DNA of 64,000 bases from Paracoccaceae bacterium (lineage in GTDB: Bacteria > Pseudomonadota > Alphaproteobacteria > Rhodobacterales > Rhodobacteraceae): positions 186,001 to 250,000 of the forward strand of contig JAAFAB010000001.1 of assembly GCA_018222585.1 (NCBI GenBank), written 5' to 3'. The notes beneath the pieces were generated by a model. The model saw only the letters and a list, made by a program, of their open reading frames with translations, was not told the DNA's origin and searched no databases. Every line of letters begins with the position of its first letter. Within the stretch, counting starts at the first letter, position 1. Below, one piece after another: positions 8,828-45,402 of the stretch. The position numbers and the translations under genes are program-made.

Positions 8828-9919
8828 TCAGAGGATGCCATCACTCCGCAGGCGCTGCGCCAGGGCGCGATAGGCCGCCGCAGGGGCGCCATCCTCCAGC
8901 GCGACGGGACGACCGCTGTCGCCGGCCAGCCGGGTCTCAAGATCCAGCGGAAGGGTGCCAAGCAACGGCACGCCCAGCTTCTCCGCCTCGGCGGCGACAC
9001 CGCCATGACCGAAGGGATGTGCCTCGTGCCCGCAGGCGGGGCAGATGAACGAGGCCATGTTCTCGATCATGCCCAGAAGCGGCACCTTCAGCGTCTGGAA
9101 CATGTCGATGGCCTTGCGCGCATCCAGCAGCGCCACGTCCTGCGGGGTCGACACCACGATGGCACCGTCCAGCGACGACCGCTGGCCGAGGGTCAGCTGC
9201 ACATCCCCCGTGCCCGGCGGCAGGTCGACCAGCAGCACGTCCAGCTCTCCCCATTGCACCTGTGTCAGCAGCTGCTGCATCGCCCCCATCAGCATGGGCC
9301 CGCGCCAGACCACGGCCTTGCCCTCGTCCAGCATGTTGCCGATGGACATCAGGGTGACACCATGGGCGGTCAGGGATTCGATCGTCTCGCCGTCCGGAGA
9401 GGCGGGGCGCTTGCTGTTGCCCATCATGCGCGGCTGCGAGGGGCCGTAGATATCGGCATCCAGCAGGCCCACCTTCAGCCCCTCGGCCGCCAGCGCCACG
9501 GCGAGGTTGGACGACACGGTGGACTTGCCGACCCCCCCCTTGCCCGAGCCGATGGCAATGATCTTCTTCACCCCGGCAGGGCGCATCGCGGTGGTGGTCG
9601 GCCTGGGATGCCCCCCCACCTTCAGGCTGGGCGGGCCGCTCGGCGGAGGCGGCGGCGGCGCGGCGGCGCGTTGCTCATGCGCGGTCAGGGCGGCGGTGGC
9701 GCGGGACACGCCGGGCAGCGCCTTCAGCAGATCCTCGGAGGCGGCACGGATCGCCTCCATCTTGCGCGCGGTCGCCGCGTCGGGCGCCTCGATCACGTAG
9801 CGCACGATCTCGCCGTCGATGCTGAGCGCACGGATCATGTCGCGGCTGACGAGATTGCCGCCATCGGGCAGGGTGAGCCTCTGCAGTTCCTGCAGGATCT
9901 GGTCTCGGGTGACGGGCAC
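8828..9919 (-). CDS. mrp: Mrp/NBP35-type iron-sulfur carrier ATPase
   Basis: This is an ApbC/Mrp-family P-loop ATPase that carries and delivers Fe-S clusters in the cytosol. The protein has 363 residues: an N-terminal FeS-assembly (MIP18-like) domain to about residue 80, a proline-rich linker (88-98), then the ATPase domain. The deviant Walker A GKGGVGKST is at 126-134, followed by DADIYGPSQPRMMG, DLPPGTGDVQLT and the paired cysteines C293 and C296 (CPAC) that bridge a cluster between two subunits. It uses a GTG start with GAAGGAGA six bases upstream. It appears monocistronic. Confidence 0.95.
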   Translation of the reverse strand: MPVTRDQILQELQRLTLPDGGNLVSRDMIRALSIDGEIVRYVIEAPDAATARKMEAIRAASEDLLKALPGVSRATAALTAHEQRAAAPPPPPPSGPPSLKVGGHPRPTTTAMRPAGVKKIIAIGSGKGGVGKSTVSSNLAVALAAEGLKVGLLDADIYGPSQPRMMGNSKRPASPDGETIESLTAHGVTLMSIGNMLDEGKAVVWRGPMLMGAMQQLLTQVQWGELDVLLVDLPPGTGDVQLTLGQRSSLDGAIVVSTPQDVALLDARKAIDMFQTLKVPLLGMIENMASFICPACGHEAHPFGHGGVAAEAEKLGVPLLGTLPLDLETRLAGDSGRPVALEDGAPAAAYRALAQRLRSDGIL

Positions 9920-10473
9920 GATGGTCTCCTTCGGTCACGGGCCGGTCGCGCGCCGGAGGGGCGCACGGGGGTTGTCGCCTAACCTGCGCATTTTCTCGGC
10001 AGGAACAAGAGTCGCAGGGGTCTTGCGTCCCGTGGCCGCGCACATCCGGTTGCGCGCCGCAACTGCGAAAGCGGTCTCGCTGCATCGCAGCATAATTTGA
10101 CCTCTCAAACCTCTCAGCCCTCTTCTTTTTGCCGTGGCATGGCGCCCGGCGGACCAGAGGAATTCCGCATGTGCCCAAATGATAATCATGACCCAACGTC
10201 ACGGGGGCACGCTTGTTTAAAAGGGCATTGTTCACATACTGCCCGGATTTTGTGCAGCACCGCCTCCCTCCCTTTAGGTCAGCCCCGCTTATGCACTTGC
10301 TGCATAGCGGCGTTGTAGAACCGACGATTGTGCATTCGCAGCAAATGGGTCAAAACAGGCTCAACAGCGACGGCAACGGACCACCGCAAGTTAGCGCCAA
10401 CACGGCGCAGGATCCGAAGGCGCCGCAGACCGCAATGACGTTCACCGAGATCGTTACGTAAGGATGAGTTGAG
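9920..10473. other. Long non-coding region between mrp and the DUF1127 gene
   Basis: No convincing gene lies in these 554 bases; the open frames on both strands lack credible starts or composition. GC content drops visibly around 10080-10470, as expected for promoters. A sigma-32-like promoter candidate at 10212-10239 is listed separately. If it is used, the DUF1127 transcript has a leader of about 225 nt. Confidence 0.5.
10212..10239 (+). promoter_or_regulatory. Candidate RpoH-type promoter for the ccaF1-sRNA unit
   Basis: CTTGTTT (10212-10218) and CACATAC (10233-10239) are separated by 14 bases, close to the CTTGAAA-N13-15-CCCATNT pattern of heat-shock sigma factors. The homologous locus in R. 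sphaeroides is driven by RpoHI/RpoHII. The -10 match is only partial, and the distance to the start codon is long. Confidence 0.3.
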
Positions 10474-10689
10474 ATGGCATACGCAAACTACACCCCGGCC
10501 GCTCCGGCCACGCAAGGTTTCTCCGGCTTCTTCGCAGGCGTTGCAAGCCGCTACACTCGCTACTCGAAGTACCGCCGCTGCATCAACGAGCTGTCCGCGC
10601 TCAGCAACCGCGAGCTGAAGGACCTCGGCCTGCATCGGTCGATGATCAAGTCGGTCGCCTACGAGGAAGCCTACGGCGCCTCGGCGTAA
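10474..10689 (+). CDS. ccaF1: DUF1127 small basic protein, CcaF1-like
   Basis: A 71-residue protein whose C-terminal half holds the DUF1127 motif (YRRCINELSALSNRELKDLGL, then HRSMI), a short Arg-rich helical domain. In R. sphaeroides the DUF1127 protein CcaF1 binds RNA, affects RNA maturation and turnover, and is co-transcribed with the CcsR sRNAs that follow it. Here the gene is followed at once by ten CCTCCTCCC hairpins, so the same role is very likely. A short N-terminal YANYTPAAPATQGFSGFF stretch precedes the domain. An AAGGATG sits about 10 bases before the ATG. Confidence 0.92.
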   Translation: MAYANYTPAAPATQGFSGFFAGVASRYTRYSKYRRCINELSALSNRELKDLGLHRSMIKSVAYEEAYGASA

Positions 10690-10703
10690 CGACACTTGGG
10701 ATC

Positions 10704-10775
10704 AGTCGGCCCTCTCCTCCTCCCTGGGCCACTGAGACTGGCGACGGTGCCTCTCCTCCTCCCTGGCACCGTCGC
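10704..10775 (+). ncRNA. CcsR/cuckoo RNA unit 1 (hairpins 1 and 2)
   Basis: Two hairpins each show the motif CTCTCCTCCTCCCTG in the loop (10712-10726 and 10751-10765, 39 bases apart). Hairpin 1 has a short stem with one bulged base. Hairpin 2 has a perfect 11-bp stem (10741-10751 with 10765-10775). The two-hairpin plan and the CCUCCUCCC loops match the CcsR/cuckoo RNA family. The unit begins 14 bases after the ccaF1 stop, so it is probably processed from the same transcript. Confidence 0.85.
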
Positions 10776-10806
10776 ACCTAACACCGGAGCGAAAGCTCCA
10801 ACAGTT

Positions 10807-10879
10807 CGCCGCCCTCTCCTCCTCCCTGGGCGGTGATGTCAGGACCGGCGGGAGCTCTCCTCCTCCCTGCTCCCGCCGG
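10807..10879 (+). ncRNA. CcsR/cuckoo RNA unit 2 (hairpins 3 and 4)
   Basis: Loop motifs are at 10814-10828 and 10855-10869. Hairpin 3 is closed by CGCCGCCC/GGGCGGTG with one G-U pair. Hairpin 4 has a perfect 11-bp stem (10845-10855 with 10869-10879). The unit is preceded by a small GGAGC-GAAA-GCTCC hairpin (10786-10799). The stretch 10800-10883 is nearly identical to 11004-11088 (unit 4), showing segmental duplication. Confidence 0.87.
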
Positions 10880-10894
10880 ACACTGACACCAGAC

Positions 10895-10968
10895 ACGGTC
10901 GCTCTCTCCTCCTCCCTGAGCGCCCGTTGTATCCCGGAGAAGCCTCTCCTCCTCCCTGGCATCTCCGG
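10895..10968 (+). ncRNA. CcsR/cuckoo RNA unit 3 (hairpins 5 and 6)
   Basis: Loop motifs are at 10904-10918 and 10944-10958. Hairpin 5 pairs ACGG-T-CGCTC with GAGCG-C-CCGT, and hairpin 6 pairs CCGGAGA-A-GCC with GGC-A-TCTCCGG, each with one internal mismatch. Stem sequences differ from the other units while the loop is unchanged, so structure and loop appear to be what is conserved. Confidence 0.83.
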
Positions 10969-11011
10969 TCCCCATTCCGGGGTCGTTCCTCAGGTCCGAC
11001 CCCAACAGTTT

Positions 11012-11084
11012 CGCCGCTCTCTCCTCCTCCCTGAGCGGTGATGCCAAGCCCGGCGGGAGCTCTCCTCCTCCCTGCTCCCGCCGG
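11012..11084 (+). ncRNA. CcsR/cuckoo RNA unit 4 (hairpins 7 and 8)
   Basis: Loop motifs are at 11019-11033 and 11060-11074. Hairpin 7 (CGCCGCTC/GAGCGGTG) differs from its duplicate, hairpin 3, by a C-G to T-A change on both arms, a compensatory pair. Hairpin 8 has the same 11-bp stem as hairpin 4. A GGGGTCG...CGACCCC hairpin precedes the unit. Confidence 0.87.
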
Positions 11085-11099
11085 ACACTTGGCCCCGAT

Positions 11100-11175
11100 A
11101 CGCCGGTCCTCTCCTCCTCCCTGGACCCGCGTTAGATGACGGCGGCGCTCTCTCCTCCTCCCTGAGCGCCGCCGT
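11100..11175 (+). ncRNA. CcsR/cuckoo RNA unit 5 (hairpins 9 and 10)
   Basis: Loop motifs are at 11109-11123 and 11150-11164. Hairpin 9 pairs ACGC-C-GGTCC with GGACC-C-GCGT. Hairpin 10 has a perfect 12-bp stem (11139-11150 with 11164-11175) and runs directly into TTTT, so it doubles as the terminator of the whole array. Confidence 0.87.
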
Positions 11176-11178
11176 TTT
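11139..11178 (+). terminator. Intrinsic terminator ending the sRNA array
   Basis: A 12-bp perfect GC-rich stem with a 13-nt loop is followed by TTTT at 11175-11178. The loop is the CTCCTCC motif of hairpin 10, so the last sRNA hairpin and the terminator are the same element. Confidence 0.85.
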
Positions 11179-11204
11179 CACGTTTAAGGACATGTGGTTG
11201 GGAA

Positions 11205-11445
11205 GAAGGGGGCGCCGCCCCCTCGGCCGCGCTGTGCGCGCCCTCACCCCCGGAGGTATTTTCAGCCTGGTGATGCAAACGGGACGGTGCCCGGAAGGGC
11301 TCCCTCCCTCACCGGCAGGAGCGTGGCACGCTCCCCACGGAGAACGCGGGCGCCATTCCGCCCGGCACAATGCACATCACCAGGCTGAAAATACCTCCGG
11401 GGGTGAATTGAGCCCGCATGGGCTCAAGAGGGGGCAGAGCCCCCT
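11205..11445. repeat. Inverted pair of the dispersed intergenic repeat
   Basis: Arms 11244-11275 and 11375-11406 are 32-bp perfect inverted copies of the repeat core (CATCACCAGGCTGAAAATAC then CTCCGGGGG), with a 99-base spacer. Each copy has a short GC palindrome on its outer side: GGGGG-CGCCG-CCCCC at 11208-11222 and GGGGG-CAGAG-CCCCC at 11430-11444. Related copies occur elsewhere in the window. No gene is visible inside. Confidence 0.8.
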
Positions 11446-11453
11446 GCCCGGTC

Positions 11454-13892
11454 TCAGAAAGGCACGTCGTCAGGATTGGTGACGAATTTCGCCACCACCT
11501 TCTTCACTCCGGCCTTGTCGAAGGCGATTTCCAGCTTGTCGCCCTCGACTCCGATGATCTCGCCGTAGCCGAATTTCTGGTGGAAAACCCGTTCGCCGAC
11601 CGTGTGCGAAGAAGCCGCGGTCATGTCGATGACCGAGCCCCGGCTTTCGCGGGGCTGGCTGACCGGACGATTGCCGGCGCGGGCCTGCATCCGCTGCCAG
11701 CCGGGAGAGTTGTAGACATTGGCTTCGGTCATGCGCTTTTCCATGCCCGACTGCACCGAGCCCCCCGAGGCCGCGCCGAATCCCCCGCCGTAGAGGCCGG
11801 GCGGGGTCAGCACCTCGACGTCCTCTTCCGACAGCTCGTCGATGAAGCGCGAGGGCAGCTGGCTTTGCCACTGGCCGAAGACACGGCGATTCCCGGCGAA
11901 GGAGATCGTGCAGAGCTCTTCAGCGCGGGTGATGCCCACGTAGGCCAGGCGGCGTTCCTCTTCGAGGCCCTTGAGGCCCGATTCGTCCATGGATCGCTGC
12001 GAGGGGAAGAGCCCGTCTTCCCAGCCCGGCAGGAAGACCACGGGGAATTCCAGCCCCTTGGCGGCGTGCAGGGTCATGATCGAGACCTTGGGCTCGGCAT
12101 CGTCGTTGCGCTCATTGTCCATGATCAGCGCGACGTGTTCGAGGAAGCCCTGGAGATTGTCGAAGTTCTCCAGCGCCTTGACCAGTTCCTTCAGGTTTTC
12201 CAGTCGGCCCGGAGCCTCGGGCGTCTTGTCGTTCTGCCACATCTCGGTGTAGCCGGATTCGTCGAGGATCTGTTCGGCCAGTTCGATATGGCCGAAGGGC
12301 GCCTGGGGGCGGTCCTCGTCGAGGATGACGTCGTCCTCATCCGCCAGGGTGGCGGCTGTCGTATGCAGGCGGGCCACCTCGTGCCAGCGGTCGATCTGGT
12401 CGATGAACCGCGAGAGCTGAGCCGCGCCCTTGCCGGTAAGCCCCTGATCCTGCAGCAGGATACGGGCGCCATCCAGCAGCGAGGTGCCATTGGCCCGCGC
12501 CGCCATCTGGATCTTCTGCTGCGCCTTGTCGCCCAGGCCGCGTTTCGGCTGGTTGACGATCCGCTCGAAGGCCAGGTCGTCGGCGGGCGAGGTCACCAGC
12601 CGGAAATAAGCCATGGCATCGCGAATCTCGAGCCTCTCGTAGAAGCGCGGGCCGCCGATGACGCGATAGGGCAGGCCGATGGTCAGGAAACGGTCTTCGA
12701 AGGCGCGCATCTGATGGCTGGCGCGGACCAGAATCGCCATGTCGTCCCCGGTATAGGGGCTGAGACCACGGGTGCCCTTCTCCAGCGCCTCGATCTCGTC
12801 GCCGATCCAGCGGGCCTCCTCGTCGCCGTCCCAATGGCCGATCAGGCGCAGCTTCTCGCCCTCGGGCTTGTCGGTCCAGAGCGTCTTGCCCAGGCGATTC
12901 TCGTTCCCCGAGATCACCGAGGAGGCGGCGGCCAGGATATGCGGCGTCGAGCGGTAGTTCTGTTCCAGCCGCACCGTCTTGGCGCCGGGAAAGTCCTTTT
13001 CGAAGCGCAGGATGTTGCCCACCTCGGCGCCGCGCCAGCCGTAGATCGACTGGTCGTCGTCACCGACGCAACAGATGTTCTTGTGCGCCCCGGCCAGCAG
13101 GCGCAGCCAGAGGTACTGCGCCACGTTGGTATCCTGGTACTCGTCCACGAGGATGTACTTGAACCAGCGCTGGTACTGTTCCAGCACGTCGGGGTGGGCC
13201 TGGAAGATGGTCACGACGTGCAGCAGCAGGTCGCCAAAATCGACCGCGTTCAGCTCGCGCAGGCGATGCTGGTACTGCTCATAGAGTTCGGTACCGCGGT
13301 TGTTGAAGGCCGTCGCCTCGCCCGAGGGCACCTTTGCCGGCGTCCAGGCGCGGTTCTTCCAGGCGTCGATCAGGTTGGCCAACTGCCGCGCTGGCCAGCG
13401 CTTTTCGTCGATGTTGTTGGCCAGGATCAGCTGCTTCAGCAGGCGGATCTGGTCGTCGGTATCCAGGATGGTGAAGTTAGACTTCAACCCTGCAAGCTCT
13501 GCATGGCGGCGCAGCAGCTTGACGCAGATGGCGTGGAAGGTGCCCAGCCAGGGCATCCCCTCGACCGCGCCGCCCAGCAGGCGCTCGACACGGGTCTTCA
13601 TTTCCCGCGCCGCCTTGTTGGTGAAGGTCACCGAGAGAATCTCGTTCGGGCGGGCGCGCCCTGTCGAAAACAGGTGCACGATGCGCGAGGTCAGCGCCTT
13701 GGTCTTGCCCGTACCCGCCCCGGCCAGCATCAGCACCGGGCCGTCCAGGGCCTCGACCGCCTCGCGTTGCGCGGGATTCAGATCGTCCAGGTAGGTGGTC
13801 GGGCGCGCGCCCTGCATGGCGCGCTGCGACAGCGGCGTGCGGACGGGCTGGCTGGCCGCCTCGAAGGCGTCATCTTCGGAAAAACTGCTCAT
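11454..13892 (-). CDS. uvrD: UvrD/PcrA-type ATP-dependent DNA helicase
   Basis: A superfamily 1A 3'-5' helicase used in nucleotide excision and mismatch repair and in clearing stalled RNA polymerase. The 812-residue protein starts at MSSFSEDDAFEA (13892); an in-frame start 30 codons earlier is less likely. Motifs in order: LNPAQREAV Q-motif, AGAGTGKT Walker A, VDEYQDTN, GDDDQSIYGWRGA, LEQNYRS, TLHAAKGLEFPVVFLPG and LAYVGITRAEE. The C-terminal 50 residues (VGERVFHQKFGYGEI) form the Tudor-like RNA polymerase contact domain of UvrD/PcrA. It is divergent from pyc. Confidence 0.95.
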   Translation of the reverse strand: MSSFSEDDAFEAASQPVRTPLSQRAMQGARPTTYLDDLNPAQREAVEALDGPVLMLAGAGTGKTKALTSRIVHLFSTGRARPNEILSVTFTNKAAREMKTRVERLLGGAVEGMPWLGTFHAICVKLLRRHAELAGLKSNFTILDTDDQIRLLKQLILANNIDEKRWPARQLANLIDAWKNRAWTPAKVPSGEATAFNNRGTELYEQYQHRLRELNAVDFGDLLLHVVTIFQAHPDVLEQYQRWFKYILVDEYQDTNVAQYLWLRLLAGAHKNICCVGDDDQSIYGWRGAEVGNILRFEKDFPGAKTVRLEQNYRSTPHILAAASSVISGNENRLGKTLWTDKPEGEKLRLIGHWDGDEEARWIGDEIEALEKGTRGLSPYTGDDMAILVRASHQMRAFEDRFLTIGLPYRVIGGPRFYERLEIRDAMAYFRLVTSPADDLAFERIVNQPKRGLGDKAQQKIQMAARANGTSLLDGARILLQDQGLTGKGAAQLSRFIDQIDRWHEVARLHTTAATLADEDDVILDEDRPQAPFGHIELAEQILDESGYTEMWQNDKTPEAPGRLENLKELVKALENFDNLQGFLEHVALIMDNERNDDAEPKVSIMTLHAAKGLEFPVVFLPGWEDGLFPSQRSMDESGLKGLEEERRLAYVGITRAEELCTISFAGNRRVFGQWQSQLPSRFIDELSEEDVEVLTPPGLYGGGFGAASGGSVQSGMEKRMTEANVYNSPGWQRMQARAGNRPVSQPRESRGSVIDMTAASSHTVGERVFHQKFGYGEIIGVEGDKLEIAFDKAGVKKVVAKFVTNPDDVPF

Positions 13893-18910: not shown

Positions 18911-18985
18911 GCGGGCGTAGCTCAGGGGTAGAGCATTACCTTGCCAAGGTAAGGGTCGGGCGTTCGAATCGCCTCGCCCGCTCCA
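18911..18985 (+). tRNA. tRNA-Gly (GCC)
   Basis: The gene has 75 bases with a 7-bp acceptor stem (GCGGGCG/CGCCCGC), anticodon loop TTGCCAA reading GGC/GGU glycine codons, GTTCGAATC T-loop and encoded CCA. It is identical to the copy at 19050. Confidence 0.97.
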
Positions 18986-19049: not shown

Positions 19050-19124
19050 GCGGGCGTAGCTCAGGGGTAGAGCATTACCTTGCCAAGGTAAGGGTCGGGC
19101 GTTCGAATCGCCTCGCCCGCTCCA
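19050..19124 (+). tRNA. tRNA-Gly (GCC), second copy
   Basis: It is identical over all 75 bases to the first copy, 64 bases downstream, with encoded CCA. The spacer between them differs from flanking DNA and contains no gene, so both are probably cut from one transcript. Confidence 0.97.
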
Positions 19125-43760: not shown

Positions 43761-44248
43761 GCCGCGCCCTCCAGAGCCTTCTCCAGCCCCTCGACAGAGG
43801 CCCGGCCGATCAGTTGGCCGTCCAGCATCGCAGCCGGCGCGCAGGCACACAGCCCAAGACAATAGACCGCCTCGACCGTCACCCGGCTGTCCGCCGTGGT
43901 GCCGTGATCCTCGAGACCCAGAAGCGAGAGCATCCGCGCCGTCAGCGCCTCGGCGCCCATCGACTGACAGGCTTCGGCCCGGCAGATCTTCAGCACATGG
44001 CGCCCAGCGGGGGCCTTGCGGAAATCATGGTAGAAGGAAATCACCCCGGTGACCTCGGCGCGGGTCAGGTTCAGCGCCTCGGCCAGCAGCGGCACCGCAT
44101 TGGCGGGCACGAAACCAAAGGCAGCCTGGATCTCGTGCAGCATCGGCAGCAGCGGACCCTCGGCCGACAGATGCCTGTCGATCAACGGCCTGATCTCGGC
44201 CTCGGCGACCTGCGGCAGATCCCGCGCGATGCTTGGCTGCGAAGTCAT
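43757..44248 (-). CDS. fdsG: NAD-linked formate dehydrogenase, gamma subunit
   Basis: A NuoE-like [2Fe-2S] subunit of 163 residues that works with FdsB in electron transfer to NAD. The thioredoxin-fold cluster ligands are seen as CRAEAC and CLGLC. It is the first gene of the fds operon. The Shine-Dalgarno AGGGAGGAG, three bases from the ATG, is unusually long and exactly complementary to the CTCCTCCCT loop of the sRNA array at 10704-11175. The LysR gene lies 88 bases upstream on the same strand. Confidence 0.95.
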   Translation of the reverse strand: MTSQPSIARDLPQVAEAEIRPLIDRHLSAEGPLLPMLHEIQAAFGFVPANAVPLLAEALNLTRAEVTGVISFYHDFRKAPAGRHVLKICRAEACQSMGAEALTARMLSLLGLEDHGTTADSRVTVEAVYCLGLCACAPAAMLDGQLIGRASVEGLEKALEGAA

Positions 44249-44251
44249 AGA

Positions 44252-44260
44252 CTCCTCCCT
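44252..44260 (-). promoter_or_regulatory. fdsG Shine-Dalgarno complementary to CcsR loops
   Basis: On the minus strand this is AGGGAGGAG, three bases before the fdsG ATG. It is the reverse complement of CTCCTCCCT, present in all ten hairpin loops at 10712-11164. Strong Shine-Dalgarno sequences are purine-rich anyway, so the match is suggestive only. Confidence 0.5.
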
Positions 44261-44325: not shown

Positions 44326-44346
44326 GATTGATGATTTCAATCAATC
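44326..44346. promoter_or_regulatory. Perfect dyad at the LysR/fdsG junction
   Basis: GATTGAT-GATTTCA-ATCAATC is a 7-bp perfect inverted repeat with a 7-base centre, overlapping the stop of the LysR gene and lying about 80-100 bases before fdsG. It could be a LysR-type operator for fds, or a weak terminator of the regulator gene. Confidence 0.4.
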
Positions 44347-45227
44347 TGACCGGATCCCAGGCTCTCCGCCGCCTCCAGCAGCGCCTGCAGCACCGGGGTA
44401 TGGGGCGCCTGGTAGGGCGCGACCAGCCCGACCGCCGGTCCCACGCCCGCCGCGACGGGCACCGCCACCAGATCGCGCCCCGAGATCAGGAAGCCGGCCA
44501 GGTCGTCCGGCAGCACGGTCACCAGCCCGGCCTGCTCGGCATGGCTGACCAGCACCACGGTCGAGTTGGATTCCAGCCCCGCCTCGGGCGAGACCCCGGC
44601 CTCCATGAAGGCGCGGTTTATGATCCGGCGGTTCTGCATGTCGGGGCTGAGCAGACAGAGCTGGTGCCCGGCGAAATCCGCCCAGTCGAGCCGCGCCTTG
44701 CCGGCCAGCGGATGCCCGGGGCCGCAGACTGCCGCGTAGCGCTCGCGGTAGAGCGGCGCGGTGGAGACATGTCCCAGCGGCTCATTATCGAGATAGGAAA
44801 TCCCGGCGTCGATCTCGAAGTTCTCCAACATGGTCAGGATCTCGGCCGAGTTGCGGCTGAGCACGGTGAAGGCGACGCCGGGATGGCTGGCGCGGAACAC
44901 CGAGGCGAGGCGCGAGGCCCAGGTCAGCGCGGTCGGAATCACCGCGAGGCGCAGGTGCCCCGCCAACCCCTCGCGGGCAAAGCGCATCTCCTCACGCAGG
45001 CGCCTCGCGTCACCGACGATCTGACGCGCCCAGGTCAGCGCGCGCTGGCCCTCCGGCGTCAGCCCGCCGAAGCGCGAACCGCGCAGCACCAGCTTGACGC
45101 CCAGCTGATCCTCCAGCTGGCGGATCCCCGTCGACAGCGTCGGCTGGGTCAGGCCCAGGCTCTCCGCCGCCCGCCCGAAGTGCTGTTCCCGCGCCAGGGC
45201 GATCAGCATTTCCAGTTTCGAGATCAT
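44337..45227 (-). CDS. LysR-family regulator, probable fds activator
   Basis: A 296-residue LysR-type regulator: N-terminal winged helix (FGRAAESLGLTQPTLSTGIRQLEDQLGVKLVLRG) and a periplasmic-binding-like effector domain. It lies directly upstream of fdsG, in the same direction, as FdsR/LysR genes do beside soluble formate dehydrogenases in other proteobacteria. Being co-oriented rather than divergent, it may be transcribed from its own upstream promoter. The effector is unknown; formate is a guess. Confidence 0.9.
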   Translation of the reverse strand: MISKLEMLIALAREQHFGRAAESLGLTQPTLSTGIRQLEDQLGVKLVLRGSRFGGLTPEGQRALTWARQIVGDARRLREEMRFAREGLAGHLRLAVIPTALTWASRLASVFRASHPGVAFTVLSRNSAEILTMLENFEIDAGISYLDNEPLGHVSTAPLYRERYAAVCGPGHPLAGKARLDWADFAGHQLCLLSPDMQNRRIINRAFMEAGVSPEAGLESNSTVVLVSHAEQAGLVTVLPDDLAGFLISGRDLVAVPVAAGVGPAVGLVAPYQAPHTPVLQALLEAAESLGSGQID

Positions 45228-45335: not shown

Positions 45336-45402
45336 CATCACCGGGCCGAAAATACCTCCGGGGGGAGGGGCTCCGCAAGGAGCACCGGGGGCGGCGCCCC
45401 CC
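45336..45402. repeat. Dispersed intergenic repeat copy
   Basis: GCATCACCGGGCCGAAAATAC followed by CTCCGGGGGG, GGGCTCC-GCAA-GGAGC and GGGGG-CGGCG-CCCCC. The rest of the 45228-45565 gap between the divergent LysR and pta genes holds nothing else I can name. Confidence 0.72.

Follow-up and report, generated by a model that had tools for sequence, protein, structure and literature searches.

The question raised by this locus is whether a row of GC-rich hairpins behind a short gene is an array of CcsR/cuckoo small RNAs and, if it is, what the array might regulate and what might regulate it. The window, that is the whole stretch of DNA analyzed, is 64,000 nucleotides long. Sequence comparison places the host in Pseudooceanicola, with P. 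antarcticus as the closest named match; its CcaF1 is 89% identical and its array likewise has ten motifs.

The motif CTCCTCCC occurs 13 times in the window, while 5.3 copies are expected and 13 or more were found in 1/100 shuffles. Ten of the 13 copies lie inside 10704..11178, and it is this clustering, rather than the window count, that is striking. The ten starts given in a first-pass annotation of the DNA (10712, 10751, 10814, 10855, 10904, 10944, 11019, 11060, 11109 and 11150) were reproduced exactly. That annotation also placed each motif in the loop of a GC-rich hairpin, and in the predicted fold of 10690-11195 all ten do lie in 13-nt loops. The fold has a minimum free energy of -256.7 kcal/mol (z = -13.5), and no shuffled sequence was equally stable (0/100). 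The 13-nt loop, UCUCCUCCUCCCU, is identical in 10/10 hairpins, and each hairpin has 7 to 11 pairs at its 11 flanking positions. The motifs are spaced at 39-41 nt within pairs and at 49, 63 or 75 nt between pairs, an alternation compatible with the five two-hairpin units described earlier. Five separate predicted sRNAs would fit this spacing. The two long spacers are each occupied by a hairpin without the motif in the predicted fold.

Table 1. Features of the array and its upstream region, the candidate target in the window, and hairpins on phage contigs. Coordinates are those of the window unless a locus is named.
Feature	Position	Strand	Basis
Upstream block 1, dyad ATGCACTTGCTGCATAGC (TGCA-N5-TGCA, T-N11-A form)	10291..10308	.	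Alignment of 20 genus loci; element score
Upstream block 2, ATTGTGCANNNGCAGCA, with -35-like TTGTGC at 10328-10333	10327..10343	+	Alignment of genus loci; element score
ccaF1-like gene, 71 aa, DUF1127	10474..10689	+	PF06568, 2.7e-14, 53.1 bits
Hairpin 1, unit 1, loop UCUCCUCCUCCCU	10701..10737	+	Predicted fold and covariance model
Hairpin 2, unit 1	10740..10776	+	Predicted fold and covariance model
Spacer hairpin without motif, GAAA loop	~10786..10799	+	Predicted fold
Hairpin 3, unit 2	10803..10839	+	Predicted fold and covariance model
Hairpin 4, unit 2	10844..10880	+	Predicted fold and covariance model
Hairpin 5, unit 3	10893..10929	+	Predicted fold and covariance model
Hairpin 6, unit 3	10933..10969	+	Predicted fold and covariance model
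Spacer hairpin without motif	10979..11003	+	Predicted fold
Hairpin 7, unit 4	11008..11044	+	Covariance model; unit comparison (unit 4 91% identical to unit 2)
Hairpin 8, unit 4	11049..11085	+	Predicted fold and covariance model
Hairpin 9, unit 5	11098..11134	+	Predicted fold and covariance model
Hairpin 10, unit 5, anti-SD loop, probable terminator, then UUUU	11139..11178	+	Predicted fold and covariance model
Candidate target, GGGAGGAG (44252-44259) and ATG of formate dehydrogenase gamma subunit gene	44246..44259	-	NF004638, over cut-off
Phage cuckoo-like hairpins	L070:6037-6104	-	Model, two hairpins; other genes on locus: annealing protein, exonuclease, CI-like repressor
Phage cuckoo-like hairpins	L074:8395-8464	-	Model, two hairpins; other gene on locus: RecE-like exonuclease
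Phage cuckoo-like hairpin	L080:1130-1165	-	Model, one hairpin; other gene on locus: CI-like repressor
Phage cuckoo-like hairpin	L081:1819-1855	+	Model, one hairpin; other gene on locus: primase

Three features support assignment of the locus to the CcsR/cuckoo RNAs, namely loop, stem and neighbour gene. A CCUCCUCCC-type motif is present in every array loop (10/10), stem structure is kept while stem sequence is free, and the array sits behind a short DUF1127 gene. The neighbouring genes on the opposite strand encode a ParA/NUBPL-family ATPase (left) and a UvrD-family helicase (right). A DUF1127-like ORF was found at 27/30 family loci, in 25 of those no more than 100 nt 5' of the motifs, and the ccaF1 gene was found in 21/22 genus genomes; the exception, G309, is a 340-contig assembly. 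Only five loci came from a contig scan with a single protein query.

Conservation of the stem was examined in 60 hairpins drawn at random from 106 distinct hairpins (146 in total) at genus loci L046-L062. The window, L043 and two P. marinus-like loci, these being the window's three closest relatives, were excluded from the alignment. In the 11-pair stem 89.5% of cells are paired, and both sides change in 10/11 pairs. Stem covariation is 0.831, compared with 0.229 in shuffled and at most 0.344 in slid alignments. A covariance model built from this alignment gave scores of 35-52 bits to all ten hairpins of the array, and it matched no other place in the window. In a genome search only these ten reached E <= 0.001 among the 150 of 2,935 first-look candidates that were scored. 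At 375 motif sites in 51 loci (a few of them, e.g. L014, L020 and L031, no real arrays), 77% of the nine inner positions pair, compared with 38-47% for slid positions and 51% with 3' arms swapped. Rfam at its gathering threshold, run without a positive control for AbcR, matched no family in the array region. The call of a CcsR/cuckoo array behind ccaF1 is thus borne out by a DUF1127 gene of CcaF1 length (PF06568) and by 10/10 matches to a covariance model, the check that the first-pass annotation had named, made here with our own model built without the window.

The arrangement resembles that of CcsR1-4 and ccaF1 (RSP_6037) in R. sphaeroides, where a 71-aa DUF1127 gene is followed by tandem RNAs, each with two anti-SD loops, and by a 3' terminator, as described in PMC10253847 and PMC3927594; in the window the last hairpin is a probable terminator. 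There are four units in R. sphaeroides, five in the window and ~3 to 8 across Pseudooceanicola. Two spacer hairpins without the motif were noted in the window array. The cuckoo RNA family, with SmelA075 and SmelA099 in Rhizobiales, shares the CCUCCUCCC loop motif and free stem sequence and is described with 2-4 hairpins per motif (PMC3927594, PMC4504443), whereas ten lie in one region here. Long arrays may already be listed in the cuckoo RNA study of Reinkensmeier and Giegerich (2015).

The array had been called enlarged. As a literature comparison this is correct, there being one unit more than the four R. sphaeroides RNAs (PMC10253847). Within the genus the description fails. The 21 Pseudooceanicola arrays have 5 to 16 exact motifs (5, 6 in eight arrays, 9, 10 in four, 12 in five, 14 and 16), with a median of 10, so that the window array equals the median and is surpassed by 7/21. 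Exact CTCCTCCC counts overlook variant loops, and the odd counts of 9 (L060) and 5 (L062) probably each hide one hairpin. In the two genomes that carry the P. marinus label, the counts are 14 and 12 motifs. At least one close motif pair was found in 246/295 family genomes, and 22/295 exceed the window's genome (7) in pairs, in a count made by eye that pools pairs from different places in one genome. The array at L022 in another genus (G165) has 26 motifs, and much of it consists of near-identical ~140-bp repeats with three motifs each; its upstream element scores only 20/33. An unusually large array was rejected on these three counts (7/21, 22/295 and the 26 motifs of L022), and for its family the array is not out of the ordinary.

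Units 2 and 4 share 91% identity; the remaining nine unit pairs share 65-75%. A 133-nt stretch is repeated at a spacing of 205 bp with 82% identity. Because of these two likenesses, it is likely that the array grew by tandem duplication.

The last hairpin had been proposed to double as terminator. Comparatively, this proposal fares well. A T-run of at least 4 stands at the end of the last hairpin in 37/41 arrays and of 6/313 internal hairpins, a bias which supports the view that a terminator-like form normally goes with the last anti-SD hairpin. The count left out the 9/51 loci below 4 motifs and any hairpin 60 nt or less from a locus end; the latter filter removed the last hairpin of L019 (41/42 arrays kept). 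The four misses are L016, L032, L036, which was split by a 120-nt rule so that its last motif lay outside the count, and L042, the window itself. For the window copy the proposal fares worse. A long GC stem is followed by only four U, the copy misses the cut, and a simple terminator scan (loop limit 8) does not list this hairpin.

Side observations were made on the surrounding DNA. CGGAGGTATTTTCNGCC may be a dispersed intergenic repeat. Two of its copies, inverted relative to each other, lie between the array and the helicase gene (window 11251-11267 (+) and 11383-11399 (-)), with a third copy at 45344-45360 (-) and 0.01 expected by chance. Two tRNA genes at window 18911-18982 and 19050-19121 have equal scores and starts 139 bp apart.

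Arrays and single hairpins of this type were also seen elsewhere. The P. jeotgali (Paracoccus) plasmid pCBA4604-01 has an array behind a DUF1127 gene (L094:1226-1598). On pTPRO1 of Salipiger profundus a hairpin pair (L095:1994-2070) lies behind thiD, with no DUF1127 match in 4 kb. Four IMG/VR phage contigs have cuckoo-like hairpins and no DUF1127 match on their records, which are possibly fragments. The covariance model was applied to 18/25 viral loci, and one of the hairpin matches in L070 and L074 is weak (E = 0.016). L033 (G128) has eight motifs, the first ~160 nt downstream of where its upstream element starts, and no DUF1127 match; apparently it is an array without its protein gene.

What the loops might bind was then predicted from complementarity. 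GGGAGGAG is complementary to eight loop bases (CUCCUCCC). The pattern GGGAGGAG-N3..9-ATG occurs 51 times in the genome, compared with 6 for the reversed pattern, and 43/51 sites start an ORF of at least 120 aa (8/51 are without such an ORF). Solute-binding proteins are encoded by 15/43 of these genes and by at least 4/98 other strong-SD genes (Fisher p = 3.7e-6). The 15 comprise six DctP, four Peripla_BP_6, two NMT1_3 and one each of NMT1, TctC and SBP_bac_5 by Pfam. Three membrane parts of transporters, DctM, DctQ and TctB, are also among the GGGAGGAG genes. The background was 101 ORFs from 380 kb of this genome, taken as 19 stretches; 3/101, longer than 700 aa, were left out. The stretches were picked at round coordinates and were not matched for expression, and three of the four background binding proteins are in a single stretch. 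Of these four, phmmer yielded 2 and inspection of 55 N-termini the other 2, and more were possibly missed; for the background genes the Pfam assignments cover the 25/113 families listed. Some doubtful ORFs are present in both sets. It may simply be that genes for secreted binding proteins favour GGGAGGAG as their ribosome site and that no RNA pairing is involved.

One predicted target lies in the window, at the gamma subunit gene of formate dehydrogenase, with a predicted loop duplex of -17.7 kcal/mol. The alpha subunit gene (TIGR01591, over cut-off) is two genes downstream, and the middle gene is NuoF-like, below cut-offs. With 51 sites in 5.15 Mb, ~0.6 are expected per 64 kb; therefore this site by itself is not surprising. 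It is a natural first candidate because PMC10253847 reports that CcsR RNAs modulate C1 metabolism and flhR mRNA is a reported CcsR target in R. sphaeroides (PMC8307010). Directly upstream of the formate dehydrogenase genes is a LysR-family gene (HTH_1, LysR_substrate; window 44337-45227 (-)).

The region 5' of ccaF1 was aligned for 20 genus loci, which revealed two conserved blocks, ATGCANNTNCTGCATRGC..GC..TTG and ATTGTGCANNNGCAGCA. An element score of at least 27/33 was obtained in 46/51 loci and 17-20 in the other five; the top score of 153 shuffles was 22. The score is high in 25/30 loci outside the genus set, which are not fully independent in that family matches were viewed before the consensus was written. 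A conserved CAACA near 10362 is taken to be the transcription start region, and the dyad would therefore be centred near -65. The T-N11-A form is usual for LysR regulators, and -65 is a usual position of a LysR operator. No sigma-70-like promoter was found in 9900-11460.

Allowing up to 2 mismatches, 42 dyad-like places were found in the genome, of which one is perfect and four differ at a single position. A second DUF1127 gene (65 aa), with no CTCCTCCC in its 3.1-kb locus, has one of these four on its 5' side. Another one-mismatch dyad (G000:C20:24563-24580) is ~140 bp upstream of a DctP gene (L166) with a GGGAGGAG ribosome site (G000:C20:24410-24426), and the dyad regulator might also act on this predicted target. 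The two sites of the window genome then supplied a pattern, with the offset from dyad centre to ATTGT fixed at 29 nt and one mismatch allowed. It matched 16 places in 13/22 genus genomes, and the reversed pattern matched none. Twelve places are before ccaF1, three are before the second DUF1127 gene and one is elsewhere; at L141 the gene was assigned by coordinates. Common descent leads one to expect matches at orthologues; the telling point is that no more than 1/16 places is elsewhere.

A regulator of this kind is known from another order. The small-protein genes of the VtlR/LsrB regulon are DUF1127 genes. In Rhizobiales this LysR regulator is described as activating sRNAs and small-protein genes through GCAT-N3-TG-N3-T (PMC7486931). 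The window has 6/7 letters of the box, and all 7 are present in 5/47 loci (L025, L046, L047, L054, L057). Since 42/47 loci are without the full box, the link between VtlR/LsrB and the upstream dyad is weak. The lsrB gene is located beside trxB, and in the stretch fetched around trxB an Lrp-like frame was recognized by sight and no LysR frame was seen. LsrB is described in PMC11975290 as confined to Rhizobiales. A text search with the dyad letters plus LysR returned only unrelated literature among the matches listed.

We consider it likely that the locus is a ccaF1-CcsR operon whose anti-SD loops lower translation at GGGAGGAG sites. The ccaF1 gene and the five two-hairpin cuckoo RNAs would probably form one transcript that ends in the last hairpin. 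Co-transcription, a terminator and maturation by RNase E and CcaF1 are described for ccaF1-CcsR of R. sphaeroides (PMC10253847), and by analogy RNase E with CcaF1 would cut the transcript into small RNAs. The loops would expose UCUCCUCCUCCCU, of which the CUCCUCCC part would pair with GGGAGGAG ribosome sites and lower translation. Such sites appear to favour binding proteins of TRAP, tripartite tricarboxylate and ABC-type transporters and to include the formate dehydrogenase gene. Under stress this would likely mean less nutrient uptake and altered C1 metabolism. AbcR1 and AbcR2, which act on transporters in Rhizobiales, offer a parallel. They also have unpaired anti-SD motifs aimed at ribosome sites, and their targets are rich in ABC transporter mRNAs, several for binding proteins, the same class as the targets predicted here; the account cited (PMC7143759) describes neither a DUF1127 operon nor a tandem array of this kind, and AbcR serves here as a parallel in mode of action. 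Additional units would mean more copies of the same loop, and unit number would set the dose. Transcription would probably start from a conserved promoter, and a LysR-type operator would lie near -65.

A broader reading, which we advance tentatively and regard as rather doubtful, covers the Rhodobacteraceae. One LysR-type regulator acting through TGCA-N5-TGCA would activate a regulon of DUF1127 genes and, by way of ccaF1, an amplifiable array of anti-SD hairpins, which would repress periplasmic binding proteins and C1 enzymes at GGGAGGAG sites. Array length would be the evolutionary dial for uptake, shifted by tandem duplication between close species, in an AbcR/VtlR-like circuit built with a different RNA. 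A rival to the operator part alone takes the upstream element for an RpoHI/RpoHII promoter and nothing more, with an incidental dyad. This is quite possible, and we lean only somewhat away from it. Many relatives have after block 2 a YATNTT-like sequence, which we take to resemble RpoH -10 elements, and an RpoHI/RpoHII promoter is described for R. sphaeroides ccaF1-CcsR (PMC10253847). The -10 position in the window is TCAAAA, which leaves no evident RpoH-type promoter in this species. The dyad is among the best-conserved parts of the upstream alignment, and it is found again, at an unchanged offset of 29 nt, before the second DUF1127 gene. A LysR-type regulator and RpoHI/RpoHII may both act at the ccaF1 promoter.

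The loops themselves could be read in other ways. It is unlikely, to our minds, that the array mainly serves CcaF1, its hairpins being binding or decay-control sites (a decoy or an autoregulatory 3' UTR) and pairing with mRNAs secondary. Gene and array do occur together at 27/30 family loci, the 21 genus genomes with the gene all have 5-16 motifs at the locus, and CcaF1 of R. sphaeroides is described as binding RNA and taking part in CcsR maturation (PMC10253847). Against it stands a fixed loop, complementary to ribosome sites, in a stem of free sequence, and the eight motifs of L033, like the hairpins on the plasmid stretch and the four phage contigs, are without a DUF1127 match. Many anti-SD loops might instead titrate ribosome sites at large and slow translation under stress, with no chosen mRNAs. 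CCUCC in the loop resembles the 16S anti-SD, the loops are identical across units and copy number varies, all of which a general effect would accommodate. We nevertheless judge it quite improbable, given that the loop is longer than the CCUCC core and its eight-base complement is found at 51 start sites with a functional bias. That the array is a non-functional GC-rich tandem repeat hardly deserves belief; the locus does amplify, units 2 and 4 being near copies, but covarying stems, invariant loops, terminator-like last copies and an upstream element conserved across the family argue against it. A chance repeat was rejected on the clustering of CTCCTCCC, the fold (z = -13.5) and stem covariation.

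The locus could matter as a testable circuit that combines an operator-like dyad before DUF1127 genes, a copy-number series and predicted targets in nutrient transport. The natural series of ~3 to 8 units within one genus lets the dose of a repeated sRNA be tested directly.
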